From NCBI GenBank assembly GCA_003279615.1, contig QCHM01000008.1:1-64000 (forward strand): DNA of 64,000 nucleotides. Direction: 5' to 3'. The notes under the pieces were generated by a model. It saw only the letters and a list, made by a program, of their open reading frames with translations, had not been told where the DNA came from and did no database searches. Every line of letters begins with the position of its first letter. The stretch's first letter is position 1. The DNA comes from Prochlorococcus sp. AG-402-B19 (lineage in GTDB: Bacteria > Cyanobacteriota > Cyanobacteriia > PCC-6307 > Cyanobiaceae). Shown piece after piece: positions 37,037-39,679 of this stretch. A program made the position numbers and the translations under genes.

Positions 37037-38143
37037 GTGGCATTTTCAAAAAAATTAAAACAGTTTTTCTCCTCTTCTCCAAAAAATAATAATTGGAATG
37101 GTCTTATAGAAACCTATAAAGACTGGTTACCAGTTACAAAGAAAACACCAATCATCACTTTAAAAGAAGGTGGAACTCCTCTTATAGAAATAAAAGCAAT
37201 AGCTGATCGAATTGGAAAAGGAGTAAAAGTATATGCAAAATATGACGGTCTCAACCCAACAGGGTCATTCAAAGATAGAGGAATGACCATGGCAATAAGC
37301 AAAGCAAAAGAGGCTGGTTGTGAAGCTGTAATTTGTGCAAGCACAGGCAATACATCGGCCTCTGCCGCTGCCTATGCGAGAAGAGGGGGCATGAGAGCAT
37401 TTGTTGTTATTCCAGAAGGTTATGTAGCTCAAGGAAAATTGGCTCAAGCTTTAGTTTATGGAGCAGAAGTTTTAGCTATTAAAGGAAATTTCGATAACGC
37501 GTTAGATATCGTTAGAGAATTATCAGATAAATATCCAATAACTTTAGTTAATTCCGTAAATCCATATAGATTACAAGGACAAAAAACAGCAGCTTTTGAA
37601 ATAATAGAAAATCTTGGAAATGCACCAGATTGGTTATGCATTCCAATGGGAAATGCAGGAAATATAACAGCTTACTGGATGGGTTTTGAAGAATATTTTC
37701 ATGCTAATAAATCTAAAAAACTTCCTAGAATGATGGGTTTTCAGGCTAGTGGTTCTGCCCCACTAGTTGAAGGGAAAAGCATCACCAATCCAGACACAAT
37801 TGCCACTGCAATTAGAATTGGGAATCCTGTAAATAAAGAAAAGGCTCTTTTAGTAAGAGAAGCAAGCAATGGTAACTTTTCCTCCGTAACAGATTTAGAA
37901 ATCATAAATGCATATAAAATTCTTGGAAAAGAAGAAGGTATTTTTTGCGAGCCAGCTAGCGCAGCCTCTGTTGCAGGTTTATTAAAGAAAAAAGACGATG
38001 TACCAAAAAACTCAACAATTGTTTGTGTTCTTACAGGTAATGGTCTGAAAGATCCTGATTGTGCAATAGAAAATAATGAGGCTATTTTTCATACTGGCGT
38101 AGACGCTGAAATAAATTCAATTACAAAAAAAATGGGCTTTTAA
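37037..38143 (+). CDS. thrC: Threonine synthase
   Basis: 368 aa; NPTGSFKDRGMTMAISKA PLP motif. Confidence 0.95.
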   Translation: MAFSKKLKQFFSSSPKNNNWNGLIETYKDWLPVTKKTPIITLKEGGTPLIEIKAIADRIGKGVKVYAKYDGLNPTGSFKDRGMTMAISKAKEAGCEAVICASTGNTSASAAAYARRGGMRAFVVIPEGYVAQGKLAQALVYGAEVLAIKGNFDNALDIVRELSDKYPITLVNSVNPYRLQGQKTAAFEIIENLGNAPDWLCIPMGNAGNITAYWMGFEEYFHANKSKKLPRMMGFQASGSAPLVEGKSITNPDTIATAIRIGNPVNKEKALLVREASNGNFSSVTDLEIINAYKILGKEEGIFCEPASAASVAGLLKKKDDVPKNSTIVCVLTGNGLKDPDCAIENNEAIFHTGVDAEINSITKKMGF

Positions 38144-38199
38144 AGATATAAAAAGATCCAAAAAAAAAACTGTCTGTTGAATGAGGGGTTTTGTTTGTA

Positions 38200-38460
38200 T
38201 TTTTAATGTGGAAAAAAGAGCAAAAAATCTAAATACGGTTTTGTTTGTTTTCCACAACTGATCCTATTCGTGGAAAAATGATTTTTTCTCCACGGTCATA
38301 GTATTTTTTCCACACAAAAAAAATTAGATATTCCTTTGCTCCATTGATTTTTTTGAAATAACCACAAAACCCACAGGTACTACTACTACTAGTTTAATTT
38401 CAATAAAAAAAGAGAATATAATAGAAGAAAAAAAATTTCGTTTTTTTTAACGGTCTTGCT
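38200..38460. other. oriC: Candidate chromosomal replication origin (oriC)
   Basis: 375-bp non-coding gap upstream of dnaN; TTTTCCACA at 38248-38256 and 38306-38314, its reverse complement at 38207-38215, CGTGGAAAA at 38269-38277, (TAC)4TAG at 38378-38392, AT-rich tract 38391-38450. Confidence 0.88.
38378..38392 (+). repeat. Trinucleotide tract TACTACTACTACTAG (DnaA-trio-like)
   Basis: Four TAC plus TAG immediately after CCCACAGG. Confidence 0.7.
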
Positions 38461-38518
38461 ATTTTGAAATGGCTATGAAATTCTTATACCAAAGGATTTT
38501 ATTTTTTTAGATAACTGG

Positions 38519-39679
38519 ATGAAATTAAATTGTTCCCAATTTGAATTGAATGCGGCTTTGCAGTTAGTTAGTAAAGCAGTTTCTAATCGACCAACACATC
38601 CTGTTTTAGCAAATGTTTTATTAGCAGCTGATGAAGTAACTGGAAAATTACGTTTAACAGGATTTGATTTAAGTTTAGGAATACAAACTTCAATATCCGC
38701 TTCTATAGAAAATAGTGGAGCGATTACCTTGCCAGCTAAATTGTTTTGTGAAATTGTTTCTAAATTATCTAATGATTCTCCATTAGTTTTAAGTTCAGAT
38801 GATATTAGTCAGCAAGTTGAATTAACTAGTAATAATGGATCATATAAAGTTAAAGGAATGCCAGCTGATGATTTTCCCGATTTACCTTTAGTAGAAAGTG
38901 GAACTTCTCTTAAGTTAAATCCTTTGTCGCTATCAAGTGCTATTAAATCAACTTTATTTGCAAGTAGTACTGATGAGGCTAAACAATTACTTACGGGCGT
39001 AAATCTTACGTTTGATGGTTATGGTCTCGAATCTGCTGCTACTGATGGACATAGATTGGCTATTTTAAATTTAAATAACATTATATCTGAATCAAATGAT
39101 AAAACTACAGTTACAAATATAGAAAAGTTTTCTATTACATTACCATCTAAATCGTTAAGGGAAATAGAAAAGTTTTTAAGTACTTGTGATATTAATCAGC
39201 CAATTGAATTTTTTATTGATAACGGTCAAGTAGTTTTTATATCTTTAGACGAAATTATAACTATTAGAGCTTTAGATGGTTCTTATCCAAACTATTCTCA
39301 ATTATTACCACAAACATTTTCAAATATTTTAGAATTTGATAGAAAACAATTTATTGCATCATTAGAAAGGATAGCTGTTTTAGCTGATCAACATAATAAT
39401 GTTATTAAAATAAATTGTGATAATTCTGAAAATTTAATTCAAATAACTACCGATGCTCAAGATGTAGGAGCTGGTTCAGAATCTTTGCCAGTATCGTTTA
39501 ATGGTGAATCATTTCAAATAGCTTTTAATGTTAGATATTTATTAGATGGTTTGAAAGTTATAGATTCAAATTCTATAAAGTTAAGTTGTAATGCCCCTAC
39601 AACACCAGCAGTTTTTTCTCCAATTAATAGCGATATTAATTTTACTTATTTAGTTATGCCAATACAAATAAGAAACTAA
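38519..39679 (+). CDS. dnaN: DNA polymerase III beta subunit
   Basis: 386 aa; SNRPTHPVLANVLL, ATDGHRLA, YLVMPI. Confidence 0.97.
   Translation: MKLNCSQFELNAALQLVSKAVSNRPTHPVLANVLLAADEVTGKLRLTGFDLSLGIQTSISASIENSGAITLPAKLFCEIVSKLSNDSPLVLSSDDISQQVELTSNNGSYKVKGMPADDFPDLPLVESGTSLKLNPLSLSSAIKSTLFASSTDEAKQLLTGVNLTFDGYGLESAATDGHRLAILNLNNIISESNDKTTVTNIEKFSITLPSKSLREIEKFLSTCDINQPIEFFIDNGQVVFISLDEIITIRALDGSYPNYSQLLPQTFSNILEFDRKQFIASLERIAVLADQHNNVIKINCDNSENLIQITTDAQDVGAGSESLPVSFNGESFQIAFNVRYLLDGLKVIDSNSIKLSCNAPTTPAVFSPINSDINFTYLVMPIQIRN

Follow-up and report, generated by a model that had tools for sequence, protein, structure and literature searches.

The segment at positions 38358–38391 of the analysed stretch of Prochlorococcus DNA (64 kb in length, hereafter the window), together with the AT-rich DNA on its right, is very probably the origin-unwinding module, or basal unwinding system (BUS), of this chromosome, as judged from sequence comparisons. 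It lies in the 375-bp gap (38144–38518) that separates thrC from dnaN. The BUS itself is known already, and the copy in the window stands out by how weak the boxes next to its trios are; what is newer concerns the C-centred trios of the relatives. The features of the region are as follows.

37037–38143, plus strand: thrC, threonine synthase (368-aa ORF), left flank of the origin gap
38207–38215, minus strand: DnaA box TTTTCCACA, found by scanning, an exact match to the cyanobacterial consensus
38248–38256, plus strand: DnaA box TTTTCCACA, found by scanning, exact
38269–38277, minus strand: DnaA box TTTTCCACG, found by scanning, 1 mismatch
38306–38314, plus strand: DnaA box TTTTCCACA, found by scanning, exact
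38358–38366, plus strand: BUS box 1, ATAACCACA, a divergent DnaA box, from the aligned core of 165 family genomes
38367–38375, plus strand: BUS box 2, AAACCCACA, a divergent DnaA box abutting box 1, from the aligned family cores
38376–38379, plus strand: spacer GGTA between box 2 and the first trio, 4 nt long in the aligned family cores
38380–38391, minus strand: four DnaA-trios, 3'-GAT-5' ×4 on the bottom strand, (CTA)4 on the plus strand
38392–38470, no strand: AT-rich flank (81% AT), candidate opening region, from composition and nearest-neighbour stability
38450–38481, no strand: second conserved block, ACGGTCTTGC-N14-TATGAAAT, from conservation in the genus
38519–39679, plus strand: dnaN, beta clamp (386-aa ORF), right flank of the origin

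The preliminary description of this DNA had pointed to a (TAC)4TAG tract between a single weak DnaA box and AT-rich DNA and had read it as DnaA-trios. The tract is present (TACTACTACTACTAG, 38378–38392, within the thrC–dnaN gap), as is the AT-rich DNA beside the trinucleotides, and the trio reading is supported, the bottom strand carrying 4 copies of the published trio consensus 3'-GAT-5' and the tract recurring across the class. The register had to be shifted within the same tract, the functional one being CTA ×4 after GGTA, and the box is weak as described but is in fact a pair of abutting box-like 9-mers.

The genomic setting is that of a chromosome origin: the candidate BUS shares the gap with four further DnaA boxes, and the thrC–dnaN gap is the published position of oriC in Prochlorococcus (PMC2836286). 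The cumulative GC-skew minimum of the window, at 34.7 kb and thus approximately 3.7 kb off the site, is consistent with an origin here, though not sharp. The dnaA gene is found on another contig (C6) than the gap, and dnaN homologues were identified in 34 of the 41 genus genomes. Separately, contigs C3, C4, and C6 of the same genome carry seven short genes of the chlorophyll-binding PSII/Pcb family, five of them clustered on C4, with no match to a full-size psbB or psbC in this incomplete assembly; together with the position of the origin, the number of Pcb genes makes a low-light Prochlorococcus the likely source.

The tract is exceptional in the window and in the genome. The 64 kb contain a single copy of CTACTACTACTA, compared with 1.3 × 10−3 occurrences expected from the dinucleotide content. 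A 34-column position-weight model, trained without the genus of the window and scanned over both strands of the 64 kb, placed its top score on either strand at 38358 (17.8; runner-up, 0.5). Under the same model, the site ranks 102nd in the window when only the boxes are scored and first when only the trios are, indicating that the trios carry the signal in this genome. CCACANNNN(CTN)4 has a single occurrence in the organism's own 1.55-Mb genome (0 for the reversed control) and is present in 31 of the 41 genus genomes, nearly always approximately 146 bp upstream of dnaN and with few matches elsewhere. A BUS is recognized by a run of three or more trios whose central base is A on the strand that DnaA binds, and by an AT-rich, easily melted flank; the site has four 3'-GAT-5' trios at 38380–38391 and such a flank at 38392–38470, where 50-bp windows fall among the lowest 1% to 3% of the window by stability and stretches of 80 to 100 bp are only moderately unstable for so AT-rich a genome (lowest 8% to 9%).

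Absence of the tract or its loss of phase in close relatives had been put forward as the observation that would speak against the trio reading. Instead, wherever the upstream DNA was readable, in 29 genus genomes, two boxes, exactly 4 nt, and four trios follow one another in phase. The only trio variants in the genus are CTT, CTG, and TTA, altered in the first or third base, the middle base being T on the plus strand in 116 of 116 cells, and the spacer varies in its bases while keeping its length of 4. The neighbouring AT-rich DNA is poorly conserved, with abundant indels and substitutions in the genus, and the core is thus conserved beyond its surroundings. At the family level, the core was located in 165 of 168 genomes, the upstream sequence of the other 3 ending at a contig edge, and 151 of the 165 have CTA as trio 1. 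The 34-column model is ungapped and therefore imposes the 4-nt spacer; in nearly every family genome, however, its top match stands far clear of the runner-up, and the same spacing was seen by independent regular-expression and pattern searches.

Across the class, the strict form TTTCCACA-N4-CTANTACT was found in 117 of 242 genomes, in one copy each (reversed control, 3 genomes), and in 106 of the 202 cyanobacterial genomes outside the family, again as a single copy per genome. It splits sharply by family, being found in 26/26 (f20), 18/21, 14/18, and 5/5 genomes of some families versus 0/16 (f19), 0/7 (f28), and 0/6 (f14) of others, and in none of the 4 class genomes without a full-length DnaA. 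Its absence by family could mark the loss of DnaA–oriC dependence, and its family-wise presence or absence provides a sequence marker to set against DnaA dependence. The distance to dnaN ranges from approximately 120 to several hundred bp across the class, and in some genomes the element is located away from dnaN, with the box–spacer–trio geometry constant throughout. Two side observations concern single genomes: G433, a single-contig class genome of 3.8 Mb, gave no dnaN match and no full-length dnaA in our searches, and a 19-kb contig (G025:C19) has two equal-scoring dnaN regions in opposite orientation, probably an assembly artefact.

The boxes next to the trios are the weaker part of the element. 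Under the published BUS rule, the trios must have a DnaA box no more than 16 bp away, and the better box may depart from the standard motif at up to 2 positions (2 and 4 for the pair) (PMC8287927). The distance here is 4 bp, well inside the limit; boxes 1 and 2 have 2 and 3 mismatches to TTATCCACA, which is within the rule, and 3 and 4 to the cyanobacterial TTTTCCACA, which is outside it, so that the published BUS program run with the cyanobacterial box would reject the pair, its limit being 2 for the better box. The homologous boxes of relatives match the consensus, the counterpart of box 1 in class outgroups being TTTTCCACA, and both boxes have drifted in the genus, from TTTTCCACA towards TTAACCACA and (G/A)AAACCACA. 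The case would hence lean on the trios and on homology, the boxes being weak. The trio-adjacent boxes are of the NNAACCACA type in the genus, and the upstream boxes in the window are still TTTTCCACA; the drifted pair may be a lower-affinity gate.

The initiator itself has retained what a BUS demands of it. Asn187, Ile190, Ile193, Arg202, Glu228, and Arg264 of Bacillus subtilis DnaA (numbered by the B. subtilis sequence, in agreement with the PDB 8btg alignment) are identical in 27 of 27 alignable cyanobacterial DnaA proteins, that of the window's organism included, in an alignment that leaves out two S. elongatus-like proteins. The first five are the base-capture residues named for B. subtilis DnaA (PMC10721633), and Arg264 is the arginine finger; contact residues and finger are both DnaA features by which BUS membership is judged. 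DnaA was found in 33 of the 41 genus genomes, many of the remaining ones being incomplete.

Preceding the dnaN start by approximately 130 bp, and with a TATAAT-like hexamer after it in the window, the tract could also be placed to control dnaN transcription as a promoter, operator, or leader, with the CTA repeat unrelated to unwinding. We consider this very improbable: TATAAT is not kept in the genus, sigma-70-type promoters in the gap number 0 versus 2.0 in shuffled sequences, the geometry is fixed across the class at variable distances from dnaN and also in copies that are not near it, and both geometry and trio degeneracy agree with the BUS rules. Scanning the thrC–dnaN gap for promoters and terminators yielded no promoter-like or terminator-like site, and an Rfam search no match. 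A structured dnaN leader was considered as well; the consensus RNA fold of the genus is weak (−1.6 kcal/mol), with little covariation, and such a leader is thus unsupported.

There is likewise little to recommend the view that the element is a relic or the site of another protein, in an origin inherited by a lineage that opens its chromosome mainly without DnaA, as some cyanobacteria do. DnaA–oriC dependence has been lost several times within cyanobacteria (PMC7198777), and the drift of the trio-adjacent boxes would agree with such a history. However, strong conservation with no length change in 29 genus genomes, and the intact contact residues of the DnaA proteins found in the genus, argue for a site in use, as does the expression of dnaA before S phase in Prochlorococcus, whose cells have first one chromosome copy and then two (PMC2921402). 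A trinucleotide microsatellite that arose by chance in the AT-rich spacer, of the kind that slippage generates in intergenic regions, is refuted by conservation and almost certainly wrong, with 1.3 × 10−3 copies expected per 64 kb, no frame-breaking gain or loss of bases in 29 genomes, and the tract kept across the class.

Across the AT-rich stretch from the trios lies a second conserved block, its genus form being ACGGTATTGC-N14-TATGAAATTCTT. The counterpart in relatives is CGTTGCGC-N-TGTGGAAGCGTGG, Synechococcus/Cyanobium-like genomes reading CGTTGCGC-N-TGTG(G/A)AA(G/A)CGTGG, and the counterparts in the family and in two class genomes outside it (G344 and G326, see below) are located 50 to 118 bp past the trios. 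Within this block, TGTGGAAGC resembles an inverted DnaA box, possibly an eroded one.

Comparison within the family bears on how DnaA reads the trios. In B. subtilis, cytosine is the only good substitute for the adenine in the middle of a trio, as both bases offer Asn187 an amino group to contact (PMC10721633), and an earlier survey already suspected trios without a central A (PMC8287927). The aligned tracts of GC-rich family members read CTA CGA CTA CGG, CTA CTA CGG CTG, CTA CGA CGA CGG, and similar, corresponding for instance to 3'-GAT GCT GAT GCC-5' on the trio strand, with a register that depends on the fixed 4-nt spacer; the natural CTACGACTACGG trios of Synechococcus/Cyanobium are thus C-centred. 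Among 660 family cells, the trio-strand centre is A in 462, C in 187, T in 10, and G in 1, counts taken over related genomes that are not independent of one another. The T positions of the boxes in the same genomes outside the window's genus behave in the opposite way, having become C in 25 cases and G in 2 on the plus strand, as compared with 187 G and 1 C at the trio centres. Counted once per genus and position (plus strand), trios give 31 G, 5 A, and 1 C, and boxes 1 G, 17 A, and 13 C; within-genus polymorphism gives 12 G, 4 A, and 0 C in the trios and 23 G, 26 A, and 23 C in T-majority columns just downstream. C-centred trios become more numerous as the upstream DNA becomes richer in GC (Spearman 0.79). 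Only 63 of the 165 genomes satisfy the published A-centred three-trio rule at the site, whereas in 154 every one of the four centres is A or C.

This pattern fits GC drift filtered by a requirement that the central trio base carry an amino group, and it has the appearance of natural selection acting for the proposed rule. We find it moderately likely that picocyanobacteria form a natural series testing the amino-group rule, in which rising GC turns centres from A to C, almost never to G or T, and the C-centred trios work. Among the papers searched, we found none reporting the C-centred trio pattern for cyanobacteria. The GC-rich relatives are ready natural variants with which to test the reading of single-stranded DNA by DnaA.

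The sequence of the element, its uniqueness, its fixed geometry, its conservation, and the DnaA contact residues were seen directly, and we infer that in this organism DnaA binds the site, the strands separate, and the helicase is loaded. In the proposed mechanism, DnaA would sit on the box pair, aided by the exact upstream TTTTCCACA boxes, and the rigid 4-nt spacer would steer it onto the bottom strand. A filament would form there with one DnaA subunit per 3'-GAT-5' trio, capturing the G and A bases; base capture would stretch the bottom strand and open the AT-rich DNA towards dnaN, and the opened DNA would serve helicase loading. The element is a precise, testable candidate opening site for a very abundant photosynthetic group, with a geometry common to cyanobacteria.

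Placing the BUS in Firmicutes and as predicted elsewhere, as the preliminary description did, understates earlier work: it has been predicted in 85% of 2,070 predicted origins, and S. elongatus DnaA has been reconstituted on its own origin, which it unwinds in vitro only with boxes, trios, and arginine finger intact, the isoleucine of the ISM being needed too (PMC8287927). The BUS of Helicobacter pylori, essential in vivo (PMC8287927), shares the box-plus-trio logic with the window but belongs to another phylum and origin layout. The BUS of B. subtilis oriC (DnaA-box 6/7, spacer, trios) resembles that of the window in its tandem, same-orientation boxes, repeated 3'-GAT-5', AT-rich neighbour, and DnaA contact residues, as well as in its short spacer, which averages approximately 4 bp in the published survey. 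It differs in having six trios rather than four and a box 6 that matches the consensus, whereas both trio-adjacent boxes of the window are weak; also unlike in B. subtilis, thrC and dnaN border the origin of the window, and dnaA sits on a different contig. G344 and G326 (2.7 to 2.8 Mb; their DnaN is the closest outside the family) read TTTTCCACATTTTCCACAGCCCCTA(C/T)TACTACTG; G344 is probably S. elongatus, of the same phylum as the window's organism, and G326 probably its sister, DnaN similarity being among the grounds. Upstream of dnaN, G344 shares with the window the order of the parts, the 4-nt spacer length, and the CTA trios, but its two boxes are exact TTTTCCACA and its spacer is GCCC, where the window has ATAACCACA/AAACCCACA and GGTA.
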